64,000 bases of DNA from Kalmusia sp. IMI 367209. Taxonomy: Eukaryota > Ascomycota > Dothideomycetes > Pleosporales > Didymosphaeriaceae. Position 1 is the stretch's first letter. Every line of letters starts with the position of its first letter. Location: assembly GCA_027946365.1 (NCBI GenBank), contig JAPEUQ010000021.1:434001-498000 (forward strand). Reading direction: 5' to 3'. This document shows, one piece after another, positions 5,649 to 12,454 of the stretch. Under the pieces are notes generated by a model. The model was not told where the DNA came from and did no database searches. It saw only the letters and a list, made by a program, of their open reading frames with translations. A program made the position numbers and the translations under genes.

Positions 5649-6320
5649 CTAAATCCACAAGACTACCATCCCTACGAGCATCGTAGCACCAACGTTCCAT
5701 CTGGAGACTTCGAAGCCGGCATCCCTCGTCGCCCCCGATGTAAACAGCGGCTCTTCTGGCTTCGTCGGGCTCGGCTCTCCCACTGGAGGCGCAGGCGGCG
5801 TGAGCGCACCACTGGGTGCAGGCGTAAGCGCCACCTCTGCGCTCGTTTCCACCGCCTCAGATGACGTCGTAGTCTCTGGTCCCAACTCAAAGTTTGACGC
5901 ACTCGAATTTGTCACTCCCGGCGTCGTCGTAGGCACCAGTGGTGGCGCGTGATATGTTGCATTCGTGCCGTTGGTATACGGCGCGTAGCCTGTGCCGCTC
6001 GGTATGCCGGTACCGCCTGAGGGTGGATAAAGTGTGGATGTTATTGTGGTGTTGTGGCATGTATGTGCAGGGCTGGGGGTCGAAGTCGGGTAGACCGTTA
6101 TTGTGGTTGTGGTGTTTGTGCAGGTGCGTGATGAGGATGAAGTCCGTGGGTAGAGTGGTGTTGGAGTCGATATCGCAGGTGGACTTGTAGTGGGTGGTTG
6201 GTATCCGTAGCCGTATCCATCGGTCGTTGTGGATGAGGAATTGGAGTTGCAGTTGCAGTGCGCTGATGCGCTTCCTAATAGGAGGGCGCTGAGAGAAAAG
6301 AAGATGGTGAGTGGTGCCAT
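5649..6320 (-). CDS. Secreted Ser/Thr-rich, probably GPI-anchored cell-wall protein
   Basis: A single-exon gene of 223 residues. It starts with a clear signal peptide (MAPLTIFFSLSALLLGSASA, cleavage expected after ASA). The body is dominated by Ser, Thr, Pro and Tyr with several N-glycosylation sequons (NSS, NTT, NGT, NAT), and ends in a short hydrophobic tail (VGATMLVGMVVLWI) preceded by small residues, as expected for GPI attachment. No catalytic domain is visible. The first half has repeated TTT/TST blocks with TVYPTSTPSP and TSTLYPPSGG, suggesting internal duplication of an O-glycosylated linker. The start at 6320 is chosen because the signal peptide begins there; the frame is open further upstream to 6623, but that part (Cys/Trp-rich, basic) looks unlike secreted protein. 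Its function is probably structural or adhesive at the wall (inference). Confidence 0.8.
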   Translation of the reverse strand: MAPLTIFFSLSALLLGSASAHCNCNSNSSSTTTDGYGYGYQPPTTSPPAISTPTPLYPRTSSSSRTCTNTTTTITVYPTSTPSPAHTCHNTTITSTLYPPSGGTGIPSGTGYAPYTNGTNATYHAPPLVPTTTPGVTNSSASNFELGPETTTSSEAVETSAEVALTPAPSGALTPPAPPVGEPSPTKPEEPLFTSGATRDAGFEVSRWNVGATMLVGMVVLWI

Positions 6321-7211
6321 CGTGTTTGTATCCCACCCGCTATAATGATCTTTCGCAGTAGATGGGACCAGAAGAGAAAGCTCCGCGCCGGTAGTCCAAG
6401 GAAATCCAGATAGACGAGTATGCAAGACAGTCTGCTTGGGAAGAAAGAGAAACGAAACAACAGCACATCCGTCCAACAAAAGGCAACACGACCCGCATCG
6501 CCACACAGTACAACCATCCGCCTTCTCAATGCACACTCCGTGTTTCGCATCACATACCCGTCGCAAACTCTCCGTAGCGCCTGCACAGCGCCACAGACAC
6601 AGTCCGAAAATAATCGCCGCCATTTCTTACAGGTGTCCGAGAATTGCCGTTTCGGGCCTAGGAGGGCTGTGTTGGGTTAGGACGCGTGCTTATTTTGGCT
6701 GTGGTTGGTGGTGGTGTGCAGGGGTGTGGGATGTGGGCTGGGGCTGAGCCTCATATGGTGGGTTGGGTGGGATGGGGAATATGACGTGGGAGTTTCGAGG
6801 TGTGGGTAAGATACATAGGTATGTATGGCTAGCTTTTAGTGATATCATGGAAAAGACGTTGTGTATGCAATGATAATCGAGCCTCAATTTCCACTCCAGT
6901 GTGAATGTGCATATGTGCCCAAAGTAACACATGACAAAACGCAGCATTGCCCTTCAAACTCGATTGCGCATGGAACCAACAGTCTAAGCTTTTTGCGCCC
7001 ACTCCGAAATTCAAACAAGCATTTCCCCACCATCCAAGACAACTCCAAGTCCGAACCATAGCTTCTCCTACCCTCATCTTCGCGTGTTCGGCTCTTTGCC
7101 TCCCGAGACCACCTCGGCCACGGTTTACGCCAGTTTGAAACTCCGTTTCGCACGTCGCTCCACCCATTCGTCCACTCGTTTCCTTCACGTGCACGCTCGC
7201 TGAGGCCGTGT
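6321..7211. other. Intergenic, promoter side of the GPI protein gene
   Basis: This is upstream of the GPI protein gene and downstream of the 75-residue ORF, both minus strand. It contains a G/T-rich tract around 6690-6810 (TGGTTGGTGGTGGTGTGC type). Open frames on both strands have no family resemblance and no sensible start context, so nothing further is annotated. Confidence 0.4.
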
Positions 7212-7439
7212 CTAACGGGCCTTATTGTCCGGTCCGCTGCCGATCGCTGCTTGATTGACTTTGTTCTTGTTCTGAATTTGCGTACCTGCCAGCTGGCCGG
7301 AAGTTCTTGCGAGATGCGAGGTGGAGGAAGTGGCATTCGGAGAACGGGAGGTGTGATGTGTGGCTGCGATGCCTTCGTGCAGAGTGTAAAAGAGGGTTTC
7401 GAGACCACGGGTGAGGTCGCGGGTATAGGGGGGCTGCAT
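7212..7439 (-). CDS. Small hypothetical protein, 75 residues
   Basis: A short open frame starting MQPPYTRDLTRGLETLFYTL and ending GSGPDNKAR-stop. I do not recognise a family. Support is indirect. The leader just upstream is A/C-rich with CACTCCTGAACA before the ATG, as in expressed fungal genes. The composition is ordinary (Thr/Ser/Asn/Gln-rich C-terminal half, one amphipathic segment near residues 8-25). A 14-bp element shared with the repeats upstream of the tandem-repeat gene at 8233-8427 lies about 100 bp upstream (7535-7548). There is no signal peptide or membrane span. A GTACGC inside the frame near codon 53 could be a splice donor, which would change the C-terminus. The other overlapping frame on this strand (6884-7594) is longer but starts in low-quality sequence. 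Confidence 0.4.
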   Translation of the reverse strand: MQPPYTRDLTRGLETLFYTLHEGIAATHHTSRSPNATSSTSHLARTSGQLAGTQIQNKNKVNQAAIGSGPDNKAR

Positions 7440-7534
7440 TGTTCAGGAGTGTTGTGTTTCTGATAGTAATGGTGTGTGTAGGACGTGTTGGGTGTGGGAA
7501 GGGGACCGGAGGGCGTATTGATATGTGGTATAGA

Positions 7535-7548
7535 GAACAATACTAAGG
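7535..7548 (-). promoter_or_regulatory. 14-bp element containing ATTGTT (HMG-box-like site)
   Basis: On the minus strand this reads CCTTAGTATTGTTC, followed by TC, so the core is TATTGTTCTC. It is identical over 14 bases to the repeat unit at 8679-8692 (plus strand). The core ATTGTT is the recognised site of SRY/SOX/Rox1-type HMG-box proteins. It lies 96-109 bp upstream of the 75-residue ORF. Regulatory function is an inference from the exact repetition and position. Confidence 0.4.
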
Positions 7549-7988
7549 AGTGAACAAAGCATAGGTGGCTTAAAATCACGATATAGCAACGCAAATGAGA
7601 TAGTTGCTGCGTCTAAAGCTTCTAATGATAGAGAATACGCGGAGGGTGGCCAGAAGAAGACCGAGACAAAGACGTGAACATGCACTAACTTGGATTACCA
7701 CGAAGGACATCACATCACAAATGCGAGAACAGATTATTGAACGACTAATAGATTCCGCCCAAGAATCCGAGCAATCCTACTGCTCTACAAAGGGAGTCAA
7801 CTTCTTCACCAGAACTAAGCGACCAACCCAAAATTCGGGTAAGGTATATATTAAATATTTAAAACTACAAAAGCAGACGGATCCCAATAACTAATTCATC
7901 CCCTACAACCCATGCTAACTCCTCCCAAAACCAAAGTCAATCTTGTCGAGGATGGTGTCCGAGGAAGATAGGTATGTTGTTGATGGTG

Positions 7989-8006
7989 GATGATGATGAT
8001 GATGAT
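7989..8006. repeat. GAT trinucleotide microsatellite
   Basis: Six perfect GAT units in intergenic sequence. No coding use is evident on the plus strand; on the minus strand it reads as a His run in an unsupported frame. Confidence 0.9.
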
Positions 8007-8232
8007 GTGAAGGGTCGTCTGCGCGGGTGACATCAAGGTAGGTGAGAGTCGAATTTAGACAAACCACTTGGAAGAAGACCAAGCGCACTGCCGTGCCCCC
8101 ATATAGGTAAAGTGAACTGTGACTGAAGTGAAAGTTTTCGAACGGTAGGTTGGTGTGTCTAGGCCGTGTCCCGGTCAAGGAGCCATTGGGCCGTGCAATG
8201 TCTCCTACCCTCGCTTAGGTGAGCGAAGGTAT

Positions 8233-8420
8233 TTACTGGACGATGCAGTTGGCACCAGGGGTGGCGTTCCTCATGACTGTGCAGTTGGCTCCCGGAGTGG
8301 CGTTCTTCATGACGGTACAGTTGGCTCCCGGGGTAGCATTACGCATGACAGTGCAATTAGCACCAGGAGTAGCGTTGCGCATGACGGTGCAGTTAGCTCC
8401 GGGAGTAGCGTTGCGGGCGT
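8233..8420 (-). repeat. 36-bp tandem repeat, five coding units
   Basis: Five in-frame 36-bp units (the last differs at its end) make up almost the whole coding region. Divergence is confined nearly entirely to codon third positions. The plus-strand frame Q-L-A-P-G-V-A shares these wobble positions, so silent change alone does not fix the strand. Confidence 0.95.
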
Positions 8421-8427
8421 GGACCAT
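8233..8427 (-). CDS. Five-copy tandem-repeat peptide precursor ending in a CaaX box; candidate a-factor-like mating pheromone
   Basis: A 64-residue protein without signal peptide: MVHA, then five units of [R/K]NATPGANCTVM, the last ending NCIVQ-stop. The terminal CIVQ is a valid CaaX farnesylation box and each internal CTVM has the same form. A single basic residue precedes every NATPGANC unit (R, R, R, K, R), suggesting trypsin-like release of an octapeptide ending in Cys. Among the units, all eight codons of NATPGANC vary only at third positions, so the peptide is conserved while the DNA has drifted. The basic column changes at all three codon positions (CGC, CGT, AAG, AGG) yet stays basic, which supports this strand over the opposite open frames. 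The leader is A/C-rich with CAATCAAA before ATG; a TATA-like ATAAATAA lies about 100 bp upstream. Known ascomycete a-factor precursors normally hold one copy; tandem precursors are known for rhodotorucine A. The pheromone role is inferred. Confidence 0.72.
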   Translation of the reverse strand: MVHARNATPGANCTVMRNATPGANCTVMRNATPGANCTVMKNATPGANCTVMRNATPGANCIVQ

Positions 8428-8527
8428 TTTGATTGTTTGGTTGGATGTTTAATGAGTGTTCAACTTGGTTGTAATGATTGTAGATTCTGGTGGGTTGGGG
8501 AAGTTAGGATTGCGTGACTGCAGGGTC

Positions 8528-8535
8528 TTATTTAT
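8528..8535 (-). promoter_or_regulatory. TATA-like element of the tandem-repeat gene
   Basis: Reads ATAAATAA on the minus strand, 101-108 bp upstream of the ATG at 8427. The stretch between it and the ATG is A/C-rich, as expected for a transcribed fungal leader. Confidence 0.4.
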
Positions 8536-8677
8536 GTCTTTAGAACCGCTACAGAGAGGTGAGAGGCGCTTCAATTTGAGGCAAAGATAAGACACAAAGA
8601 GAAAGGAGCTGGCGGTAAAGGGGGCTTATTGCATCGAAGCGTCCTCGTGGTGTTTACTCGTGCGGAGGGGTGGTACG

Positions 8678-8722
8678 CCCTTAGTATTGTTCCCCTTAGT
8701 ATTGTTCCCCTTAGTATTGTTG
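8678..8722 (+). repeat. Three tandem 15-bp repeats, each with ATTGTT
   Basis: Unit CCCTTAGTATTGTTC repeated three times head to tail (8678-8692, 8693-8707, 8708-8722; the third ends in G). Cores ATTGTT at 8686-8691, 8701-8706 and 8716-8721. The array is 251-295 bp upstream of the ATG of the minus-strand pheromone-like gene. ATTGTT/AACAAT is the HMG-box core; fungal MAT1-2-type mating regulators are HMG-box proteins, so a mating-type control array is plausible (inference). Confidence 0.85.
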
Positions 8723-9349
8723 TCAGCACCTAGACCCAACATCCCGGCCCAACCATCCAACCAATCTCAAGGTATCCCCAAACAGGACATTGATCGAACG
8801 CTATGTCTACCACTAGAGCATAGAAGCCTCTAAGCTATTCCAGGCCTTTCTATGAATGCTTCGATGGAGGTTTTTGCGCTGATCGTTGCCAAGCGTTTGC
8901 GAGGCTCAGCTCAAAGATGGTCATAATCGTTCTAATCATGTTCTAGAAGATTACCGCACGATAAAAGATAGCGCCGCCACTAGTACCGGTTTCAGCAATT
9001 GGTCTATCAAAATATTGCAGAGCTGGCTGTCTCCGCGTAGTGAAGGGCCCTTTTCGGGTAGGCTTGGGCATCAACAGCCATAGGTTTTGTTCCCAATAGG
9101 CTTGCGGCGGGGACGCGGGCCTCGAGTGTAACCAGGAAAGGAACCATATCGACCGAGCAACTACCGTACTCCACCTCGAAAGTTATTGAGGGCACGCTTG
9201 GGAGGCAACATGGTTTTCTGGTACAAGTTGTTCAACCCAGATTATTGCGGTGCAGGGCCCAGCGGGCAACGTGGCTGTCAAAATCCATGAAAGTGGATAT
9301 CCAATACCGCGTCCGTCACAATAGTTTCAATCCAAATTAGGCTTCCTCT

Positions 9350-11863
9350 TTAGCTATGAGCACTCGGTGGTGGTGGTGGAGCTGGAACGAAAGCCGAGGG
9401 ACCGTAGATGTTTAGCGGGTCCTGTAAATCAGTAAATCCCGCAAAACCTTCAGCAATCATGTGGTCGACATTTGAAGTGGCACCCATCCAAGATTCCATG
9501 GTAGTATTGTTTGATCCAGCCCAGTTGGTTGGTGGAAGCATGTGATCTTGGCTCATCATCGTCGAATCCCACAGAGTCTAATTCATCGTTAGTGATAGTT
9601 AGGTAGGTAGTGATGTTAGGGCGTCAGTTACCCAATCGATCTCGGAGGCTACATCGGGCATGTCGAAGGGCACGCCGTCACTTGAAGGCCAAGTTCCCCA
9701 GATTTGCGGAGGTAGCTCTTCTGGCAGAGATTCGGGTGTCATCTCCTTGGGAAGGTTGGAAATGTCTGTCAATGTTAGCTTGCAAACTTGAACGTGATCT
9801 ATCGTAACGCACTTTTCTCAAATCCATTAGGTATTGGGTCTTGCAGCTCTACTTGAGATTGCCCGGGTGAAGAGCATTTCTTCAGCATAGCCCTCAGAAT
9901 CTCAGCTCCTCGAACAGAATCTCTAAAGCGGTTTGGATGATTTGCCCAGATATCGTATGTGGCTTCTAGAATAGCAAACATCTCAGAGACTTTGTCTGAA
10001 GAATCGCCTTTGGATTGAAGATGATTCAACTCGAGGCAGAAAACCATTGCTGCGAGCAGGAAATCGTATGTTTGGAGCGACGACATGTACCACCAGACTT
10101 TGTTAAGCTGACCACCCGGCTGGCAGGCATGGAAAATCGTCTTGTGATACTGGAGGATTTCTCGCGCGGCTTCGACACATATTATCCGTGATTCAGCATA
10201 CTTGGGATCGGTCTGCCCTGCCGTCACGAAATTACGATGCAAGACTAGCTTCGTTTTCAAATATAGCAGCTCAATGTTGTACCTTCCCATGATCAAAACA
10301 GGCGCATCAGTGACACACTCTTCTACTGGACGGACACGCATTCCTTCTGGAACCTGATTGTGGGCTTCCTCGAGACGCTTCTCCAGCGAAACTATGGTTG
10401 CGTATCTCGGAGGGGTGATCCTCTGTGCTAGTTCTGCGGCCTCCGCGAATACTGCGCAGATCTTCGACTTCGCGATGGTATATGTAGCGGGCGTTAGTTC
10501 AGACGCTGGACGCTCCTTCGGCAATACTTTCATGTTGGGATATATATCAGCATCGTAAAGATTGCGGGGTGATCGTGCATCGCTCTCTATGCGACGAACG
10601 ACGGCGGGAAGACCGATGGCAAAAGAGACTAGAGTGTCCATCATGTTCAGGACGTGCCAGACTCTTCTGCGCATCTCTCCTTGGAAGGCAGACATGCCTT
10701 TAAAGTTACTGGGGTCTCTGTGATAGCCCATGCGCATCGCCACACGCATAACAACCCCATTCATCAGCCAGATTTTTGCGTGATGGTCGTCCCTTCTTAA
10801 AAACTCACATTCTCCATAGATCATCAGGGTCTCGAGGGTGAAAGGTTGGCTTTTCGTAAGATCTGCCAAGACCATAGCGGACGAAGCTAGCGACTGAAAT
10901 CTGTTCACGGAGCTGTTCAGGTAGTCGTGGTGACTATTCTGGATGGTTGTATCGTAGGGCGAACCTGACGAACGGTCGTATGCAGCCGCATGAGCATTCA
11001 TACCTGGGTTCCTGGGGCCGAGGATGATACCCAGAGCCATAGCTGAATACAGCAGCGCAATCCACATAACGGACGTACAAGAAGGGTCTTGCCAGAATTG
11101 ATTGTACTCTTCCTGGAAAGTTGGGGTGTGCATAATGAACAAGAGAGGATCAGCACTATGGTGTCATGAGCAAATTTCTCTCAAAGTTTAGACATTGTTT
11201 CACATACCTGTTGAACCACAGAGGGAGGAGGCGATCGCATTCTTCCTTGGGAGGCATCTCTTGTATAAGCTGAGTTTTGGTGATACGTTTCGGCATCCCA
11301 AAGGTCACAGTGGACCGCGCAGCATTATCATCCCACTCCTCCTCTTGATCCTCGTCTACATCATCATCGTCTATGCTGTTCTTCACTTCTTCGATCTCTT
11401 TCAACAAAGCCGACCAGTGACCAGCTCCCACATACGTCTCATTTCCCTGATTACTGATGCGCAGTTGACCAAACGTTTCCGGACTCGGCTCGTCCGCCTC
11501 TTTGGCAGCGGTTGCTTCGACGCTGGGAACAATACCAGCGGCATCCCCGCCCTCCTGCTGCTTCTGATTGATCAAGTTGACGACCAAGCTCTCCAGATTC
11601 CTGATGCGACCGCGCATGTTTTGTGCCTGCTTGTTCCGCGGCGGCGGAGGCACATACTGGCAAGCATCATGCCGTGAGCGCTTCGCACACTGATCGCATA
11701 TCGGATGTTCACGATTACATTTCAATTTTCCCTGGCGACACGGGGTGCAGCTGAGTTGCGGTCTGGCTCGCTTGATGGGCGCGCGGGCCAATAATTCGAC
11801 GCCAACCGGCGGGGAGGTGAGAGCAGCGGAATTGTTCGTTGCAGATGGGCTTGCCTCAGTCAT
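9350..11863 (-). CDS. Zn(II)2Cys6 fungal transcription factor
   Basis: A nuclear DNA-binding regulator of 786 residues in four exons: 11208-11863, 9813-11155, 9632-9765 and 9350-9577. Introns are 52, 47 and 54 nt (GTATGT, GTGCGT, GTAACT donors; CTAAC-like branch site in the last). The Gal4-type zinc cluster lies at about residues 38-70 (SCTPCRQGKLKCNREHPICD ... QCAKRSRHDACQY), followed by a short coiled-coil-like segment (MRGRIRNLESLVVNLINQKQ) and an acidic linker. The middle-homology 'Fungal_trans' domain follows, with LWFNSADPLLFIMHTPTFQE and MRMGYHRDPSNFKGMSAFQGE-type features. The C-terminus is Pro-rich (VPAPPPPPSAHS). The target is unknown. It is the next gene upstream of the pheromone-like gene on the same strand, which may be coincidence. 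Confidence 0.9.
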
Positions 11864-12454
11864 CGTGACAGCCAGGCTAGTGTGGGAAGAAGAATGATGT
11901 TGCGACGCAAGATAGCATAGAGCGCGTCACATAAATGGATGGGGGTGGCTGAGTTGACGCCCATGTTTAGGGCTGATTATTCAGCCTACGCCGCAAGGAA
12001 ATGGTCGAGCTGTCAGCCGAACGACAGCGGCAACCAGTGGCAACGAGCGGAAAGGATGGTGGGGTGCTTCTGACTTCTCACTTCTCCGCAACACGCACAT
12101 GCACTGTGGTCTTCGTAAAGAATATATATATATATACATATATAGTAAGGGAGATCTCACTACGGGTAAAGTGATGAATCGGACAGCCTCAAAGTCAGCA
12201 GATCTGAAGAGATTGAGTTGCTTGCATGGAGATTTCCTAGGGAGGAGAACACGGCCAATGATAGACGCACCAGCGGTGTATACCTTTTTTCATTTCTTCG
12301 TTCACCACCGTGGTTCATGTCTGCAAATGTGTCACTGAATGAGATGCGGCTCCTTCCATTGCGGGATGCCTAGCGCGCGATAGCTTCCAGCCACTCAAAC
12401 ATCTTCACTTGCGGACCACCGAGACAGCCCATCCACCACCAGACGGCCGCCACC
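11864..12454. promoter_or_regulatory. Divergent intergenic promoter region, Zn2Cys6 gene / HAD gene
   Basis: The 590 bp lie between a minus-strand and a plus-strand gene reading away from each other. It contains a TA-rich microsatellite (12122-12145), which could act as an AT-rich promoter element. Short open frames here are not convincing. Confidence 0.45.
12122..12145. repeat. TA dinucleotide repeat
   Basis: An AT alternating tract (ATATATATATATATACATATAT-like, one C interruption) in the divergent intergenic region. Confidence 0.85.

Follow-up and report, generated by a model that had tools for sequence, protein, structure and literature searches.

We found a gene on the minus strand, at positions 8233 to 8427, that very probably encodes the precursor of an a-factor (the MAT1-2-type lipopeptide mating pheromone) in cf. 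Kalmusia sp. IMI 367209, judging from its sequence. We identify it as an a-factor gene because the variation in its repeated core is all synonymous, because each repeat unit has a CaaX box, because the product has no signal peptide, because its promoter shares an element with the promoter of STE2, and because both STE2 and STE3 are present in the genome. The strain, an endophyte kept in a culture collection, belongs to the Didymosphaeriaceae (Pleosporales, Dothideomycetes), with its genus given as uncertain (PMC10027605). The original prediction, which was made from the DNA alone, had proposed a check that assumed a host from the Dothideomycetes, and this is the class that Kalmusia belongs to. 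The assembly has 42,784,582 bases in 30 contigs. "The window" refers to the whole 64-kb stretch that we analyzed, which is C14:434001-498000. The gene and its parts, with the leader and the units read codon by codon, are as follows:

8233..8427, minus strand: putative a-factor-type pheromone precursor gene, 64 amino acids, with the stop codon TAA at 8233-8235
8416..8427, minus strand: leader MVHA
8380..8415, minus strand: unit 1, RNATPGANC-TVM
8344..8379, minus strand: unit 2, RNATPGANC-TVM
8308..8343, minus strand: unit 3, RNATPGANC-TVM
8272..8307, minus strand: unit 4, KNATPGANC-TVM
8236..8271, minus strand: unit 5, RNATPGANC-IVQ, with the true C-terminal CaaX box

The precursor is laid out as MVHA, three copies of RNATPGANCTVM, then KNATPGANCTVM and RNATPGANCIVQ, and the stop codon. 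The units are 12 residues each ((R/K)NATPGANC-TVM, n = 5), and all five include a CaaX-like box, which is CTVM after units 1 to 4 and CIVQ, followed by the stop, after unit 5. Only single basic residues separate the units. Comparison of the five units shows differences in each of the eight NATPGANC codons, solely at synonymous third positions, and the leading residue (R, R, R, K, and R in units 1 to 5) is encoded by CGC, CGC, CGT, AAG, and AGG. When the observed differences from unit 1 were placed at random (4, 5, and 4 differences over 33 nucleotides for units 2 to 4, and 5 over 24 nucleotides for unit 5), they were all synonymous with a probability of 0.0018, 0.0003, 0.0019, and 0.0002 for units 2, 3, 4, and 5. 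The 36-bp array also scores best among the four tandem-repeat rows in the window.

No hydrophobic stretch was found in the precursor, and the highest mean Kyte-Doolittle value over 15 residues is 0.57 anywhere in the protein; judged from this hydrophobicity, the precursor is without a signal peptide. The hydrophobic N terminus that serves as a criterion in one study of Ceratocystidaceae, and which is not a criterion of function (PMC13037118), was not seen either: the mean Kyte-Doolittle value of the first 20 residues is -0.24. An a-factor-type precursor is expected to be short (under about 100 amino acids) and to end in a CaaX or CpaX motif; the product has 64 amino acids and ends with CIVQ and the stop. 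Thus, our reading bears out the structure that the original prediction had described, namely a 64-residue minus-strand ORF of five 12-residue units with a terminal CaaX box, core codons that differ only at third positions, a basic residue that is kept despite changes in its codon, and no signal peptide.

Besides the gene, the genome contains other parts of a mating system. The STE3 gene, whose product would be the cognate receptor, is on contig C12 (PF02076, E = 1.4e-53 and 5.3e-23 for two exons). STE2 is on C1, and a MAT1-1-1 alpha-box gene is on C13. The HMG box was found in six stretches of the genome, and none of them is on C13, the MAT contig. Because MAT1-1-1 is present and no HMG box was found on C13, the strain appears to be a MAT1-1 isolate. 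In ascomycetes, a-factor is generally expressed by MAT1-2 isolates and is sensed by STE3 on their MAT1-1 partners (PMC10182648). A search of the genome for alpha-factor precursors with the pattern WCxxxGQxC gave four matches, as compared to five in the control, and none of them was precursor-like, even though STE2 is present. Beside MAT1-1-1 lies an ORF of 677 amino acids (C13, stretch L026 1873-3906, minus strand) with many near-identical repeats (GGQGSSQGDFKYPLHEQV); the part that adjoins these repeats resembles DNA lyase by eye.

Evidence from outside the coding sequence comes from a promoter element. The relevant features around the gene are as follows:

8432..8437, minus strand: single AACAAT immediately upstream of the ATG, from a motif scan
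8527..8536, minus strand: TATA-like box CATAAATAAG, identified by eye about 100 bp before the ATG
8678..8721, minus strand: promoter array, 253-294 bp upstream of the ATG, of three tandem 15-bp copies that each contain AACAATACTAAG
7536..7559, plus strand: an extra AACAATACTAAG with AACAAAG after it, located downstream of the pheromone gene at about 690 bp from its stop codon

The exact 12-mer AACAATACTAAG occurs three times upstream of the pheromone gene, once at 7536, and twice upstream of STE2, at 484 and 649 bp from the assigned STE2 ATG, with the second copy in the opposite orientation. There were no other exact copies in the 163.5 kb that we checked (the window and ten other stretches), and none with up to one mismatch in the stretches around STE3, MAT, and the C25 ORF that is discussed below. 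Sharing this 12-mer with STE2 is expected of an a-factor gene and not of an unrelated repeat gene. We spotted the shared element by inspection and not by a preset test, and we compared it to several backgrounds. The longest word that is common to the promoters of the pheromone gene and of STE2 is 14 bases. Among 299 background windows of 1 kb (half-overlapping, with window starts at 6500-9600 left out), none shared 14 bases with the pheromone-gene promoter and 10 shared 13, while two shared 14 bases with the STE2 promoter. None of the 299 carried any 12-mer of the pheromone-gene promoter twice, as the STE2 promoter does. When the STE2 promoter was simulated 20,000 times with a Markov model, a single copy appeared in three runs and two copies in none. 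Across the genome, AACAATACTAAGGG with up to one mismatch had 13 matches, as compared to 8 in the reversed control, in a scan that misses any 12-mer whose final two bases are both mismatched, the second STE2 copy being one such case. These 13 matches comprise three in the array, one at 7536, one upstream of STE2, and eight elsewhere, which is about the number expected by chance; of these eight, the one that we inspected (C23:1579584) falls within a long ORF.

The element includes AACAAT, which occurs four times in the 500 bp upstream of the pheromone gene, the highest count for any 500-bp stretch in the window. Pairs of AACAAT that are 15 bp apart are common across the genome (25, versus 8 in the control); two of these 25 pairs are in the pheromone-gene array, and six are in one other tandem array on C25. 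The other tandem 15-bp array that we noticed, with AACAAT in each copy (AACAATGTCCCTCCA), is at C25:3606901-3606996. In Verticillium dahliae, both MAT proteins are reported to bind AACAAT in the promoters of VdPpg2 (the a-pheromone gene) and VdPre1, and ATTGA is the other MAT-bound motif (PMC11077750). Neither ATTGA nor CTTTG was enriched at the pheromone gene. Within the 1 kb upstream of STE3 (stretch L003), AACAAT is absent and ATTGA occurs eight times, as compared to a density of 2.1 per kb across the window. AACAAT is shared with VdPre1 in V. dahliae, whereas in Kalmusia the element is common to the pheromone gene and STE2 and is missing at STE3. The V. dahliae case supports the presence of AACAAT at an a-pheromone gene, not necessarily with the same receptor as its partner.

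Fission yeast offers another parallel. In Schizosaccharomyces pombe, the M-factor genes, which encode a farnesylated pheromone, and mam2, which encodes a Ste2-like receptor, are both M-specific, and both are described as being controlled by the HMG protein Mat1-Mc via M-boxes and imperfect Ste11 boxes (PMC1693924). ACAAAG, which is the partner motif in M-specific promoters of S. pombe, is absent from the STE2 promoter and from the pheromone-gene array. We give little weight to the pair of M-box and ACAAAG at 7536, because it is one of six such pairs in the 13 sources that we scanned. The copy of AACAATACTAAG at 7536 lies upstream of a small ORF on the minus strand (7212-7439; 75 amino acids, no match in Pfam), at a distance of 97 bp from its ATG; this ORF may be another a-type gene or not a gene at all. 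Overall, the sequences suggest that the pheromone gene is under common control with MAT1-2-type (a-type) genes. The original proposal of a multi-copy a-factor-type (CaaX) precursor in an ascomycete is thus backed by the structure of the ORF and by independent evidence from the promoter.

The shared element also bears on two other interpretations of this locus. First, the plus strand might be the coding strand, or there might be no gene at 8233-8427. A plus-strand ORF of 69 amino acids (8243-8452) overlaps the gene and is likewise open and repetitive, and because its third codon positions are the same bases, variation at third positions cannot by itself pick the strand. However, the plus-strand product varies (FL, FF, LR) where the basic residue of the minus-strand product is conserved. 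We favor the minus strand because of this conserved residue, the terminal CaaX box, the context of the start codon (ATCAAAATGG), and the promoter, in which the TATA-like box and the array shared with STE2 both match the minus strand. We regard it as extremely improbable that the plus strand codes or that no gene exists here. Second, the repeat might be a genuine lipopeptide gene with a signal other than mating, such as in development or interaction. Roles of a-factor outside of mating have been described in Neurospora and Fusarium, so this idea has precedent; however, the promoter element in common with STE2 argues against it, and we consider a non-mating lipopeptide to be very unlikely.

Small ORFs with a CaaX end are rare in the regions that we examined. 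The pheromone gene is the only one with the ending C[AVILSTN][VIL][MQSA] among the 629 ATG-initiated ORFs of 18-110 amino acids in the window. Of the 1,609 small ORFs in the window plus ten stretches of 9.5-10 kb, two passed the same filter: the pheromone gene and an ORF on C25, whose stretch was included precisely because of its CaaX ORF. The C25 ORF (L027 4720-4848, with a CTVM-stop match at 1452334-1452348) has 42 amino acids, MPASTKGS...CCIPCTVM, and a good start context. It might be the true a-factor gene, in which case the gene in the window would encode a second lipopeptide with another role. Our genome-wide CaaX scan covered M-ending boxes of two forms, CTVM-stop and YC..M-stop. CTVM-stop had 12 matches, versus 9 in the control; 10 of the 12 have a real stop, and the C25 ORF is the only one that we judged to be a plausible small gene. 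Another of the 12 (stretch L012) is presumably the end of a Rho-type GTPase. YC..M-stop had four matches, versus one in the control, and none was plausible. With its Ser/Thr-rich N terminus and terminal CTVM, the C25 ORF resembles the a-factors described from Leotiomycetes (PMC10569646), and Fusarium solani (Nectria haematococca) has been reported to have an h-type gene plus a second small CaaX ORF. However, the C25 ORF has six cysteines and no GY motif, we found no homologue of it, and its 9.5-kb stretch does not contain AACAATACTAAG, even with two mismatches allowed. There are two AACAAT in the 1 kb upstream of it. It therefore seems quite unlikely that the C25 ORF is the a-factor gene in place of the gene in the window. 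The C25 ORF might also encode a second prenylated small protein or a single-copy a-factor.

We did not find relatives of the pheromone gene. A search for paralogues in the 42.78-Mb genome gave just two matches, the gene itself and an unrelated ORF at E = 0.14. No homologue of the 64-residue ORF was found among 5.8 billion proteins: of 663 candidates, one had E ≤ 1, and it was a FeoA-domain protein with TPGANC in common. Small fungal ORFs are often left unannotated. Since the strain's STE3 is in the protein database and the 64-residue ORF is not, the pheromone gene is probably unannotated. In Pfam, the ORF matched nine families at E ≤ 10, all of them under the curated cutoffs, and we took these to be noise from the repeats. 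Among viral contigs, seven stretches fit a pattern and none was confirmed, and there was no match to the ORF in a collection of plasmids. Among the matches listed for the unit strings in the text of the literature, there was no pheromone paper, and neither TPGANC nor NCTVM. In several Sordariomycetes, the a-factor locus is near EBP2 and cyanate lyase (PMC3068285). In Kalmusia, these genes are at C5:406745-407504 and C1:3881319-3881507, respectively, and neither is near the pheromone gene; nor did we find a strict small-CaaX ORF in the 20 kb around either of them. The gene order at the a-factor locus is variable even within the Sordariomycetes. In the window, the pheromone gene lies between a Ser/Thr-rich ORF (5649-6623) and a Zn2Cys6 gene (9799-11926).

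How might five pheromone units be released from one chain? In MAT1-2 cells, a mating-type protein of the HMG type would act on the AACAATACTAAG array. The precursor would be made in the cytosol, and cutting at the basic residue would free each unit. Were the cut to fall between Met and Arg/Lys, a new ...NCTVM end would be exposed every time and the peptides would start with R/K; with a cut on the other side of the basic residue, a basic residue would stay behind and need trimming. Each Cys would be farnesylated, the last three residues would be removed, and the Cys would be carboxymethylated. An exporter of the STE6 type would then release (R)NATPGANC(farnesyl)-OMe, to be sensed by STE3 on MAT1-1 cells. 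The mature peptide may be the octapeptide NATPGANC or a form that keeps the basic residue, as the authors of the Huntiella work write their units.

CaaX enzymes require a free C terminus, and farnesyltransferase favors Met or Gln as X; each of the five boxes ends with one of these two residues. Because of the requirement for a free C terminus, the internal boxes would be usable only if the chain were cut first, and we infer that cutting precedes the farnesylation of these boxes. The same requirement could instead mean that only the last copy is lipidated, with the internal boxes as relics or spacers and one pheromone per chain. This would also fit with a report that the internal Kex2 sites of the HPP1 precursor are dispensable, in that their removal does not abolish mating (PMC3068285). 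However, a relic could change freely, and the five cores are identical with only synonymous changes, while the four internal boxes are all CTVM. Furthermore, in the Ceratocystidaceae, conserved repeats each have their own CaaX or CpaX motif (PMC13037118). We consider lipidation of just the last copy to be unlikely; in any case, this is purely a matter of processing and would not conflict with the identification as an a-factor gene, and the number of copies that mature is a separate question. For comparison, the enzymes that mature rhodotorucine A are described as unknown by the authors of the HPP1 study (PMC3068285).

Taken jointly, the broader proposal is that this is the first a-factor gene from the Dothideomycetes, that each cut of its precursor regenerates a CaaX end, so that farnesyltransferase can act five times on one chain, and that AACAATACTAAG serves this lineage as its MAT1-2 cell-type site; we advance this combination tentatively, as it is somewhat more likely to fail in one of its parts than to hold in all. 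If it is true, AACAATACTAAG as a MAT1-2 site could be used to locate other a-type genes across the Pleosporales. The gene has a known multi-copy design and is apparently the first a-factor gene from the Dothideomycetes. We found no report of an a-factor from this class in the open-licence literature, and an a-factor from Leotiomycetes was reported in 2023 as the first in Pezizomycotina outside of the Sordariomycetes (PMC10569646). A candidate gene whose peptide unit, promoter element, and receptor are all defined makes mate signaling testable in the Dothideomycetes, and the regular five-unit precursor is suited to a direct test of the prenylation of internal cysteines. If multi-copy a-pheromones are present in both Sordariomycetes and Dothideomycetes, then the design is old or has arisen more than once.

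The original prediction had also held that ascomycete precursors normally have a single copy, which would make this an unusual case that is convergent with Rhodosporidium. This part did not survive comparison to the literature, as the same design has been published for several ascomycetes, in Trichoderma, Fusarium, Verticillium, Huntiella, and other Ceratocystidaceae. Rhodosporidium toruloides is a basidiomycete, and its rhodotorucine A is another peptide with no detectable relation to the Kalmusia gene. In the precursors of rhodotorucine A, a basic residue follows each spacer. As in Kalmusia, these precursors have tandem copies with CaaX-like spacers (PMC3068285). The single-copy a-factors of Leotiomycetes (of the Botrytis cinerea BCIN_13g03330 type) are small and have a terminal CaaX box that is mostly CTVM; they are described as having a Ser/Thr-rich N terminus and mostly a GY motif, and the Kalmusia gene has neither (PMC10569646).

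Multi-copy a-pheromones have been published for Trichoderma and Fusarium, as the h-type HPP1, which is required for male fertility in Trichoderma reesei (PMC3068285). HPP1 of T. reesei and of Fusarium relatives resembles the Kalmusia precursor in that it carries several CaaX motifs, CTVM-like at their ends and including one at the C terminus, and is described as being without a signal sequence (PMC3068285). However, the strict h-type pattern, with at least three (LI)GC(TS)VM and one of these at the C terminus, was not found in Kalmusia, whose units have ANCTVM and whose final box is CIVQ. Dibasic Kex2 sites, of which T. reesei HPP1 has two, were not found either, as the Kalmusia precursor has only single basic residues. 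Judged by sequence, the Kalmusia precursor is laid out like an h-type precursor, and we do not classify it as h-type in the strict sense.

Further parallels are in other Sordariomycetes. VdPpg2 of V. dahliae has 66 amino acids, with five repeats, a terminal CaaX box, and internal CaaX-like motifs, and its promoter also has AACAAT (PMC11077750). Its putative processing residues are Lys and Asn, and the Kalmusia counterpart is R/K followed by N; its repeats are 11 residues long, whereas those of Kalmusia are 12 (PMC11077750). The units of Huntiella are 12 residues long, like those of Kalmusia; they always start with Arg and have CpaX ends (PMC10182648, PMC13037118). In these fungi and other Ceratocystidaceae, there are up to five copies and no signal peptide is described; across the other Ceratocystidaceae, a gene has one to five pheromone copies, and the repeats are conserved with their own CaaX or CpaX motif (PMC13037118). 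The Huntiella core differs from NATPGANC (RSINQSSP, for example), and the CpaX motif varies between Huntiella repeats, whereas four of the five boxes in Kalmusia are identical. Huntiella genomes also have several a-factor gene copies, while Kalmusia has one. Overall, the Kalmusia gene fits with the published multi-copy precursors in its size, copy number, unit length, junction residues, and CaaX box in each unit.
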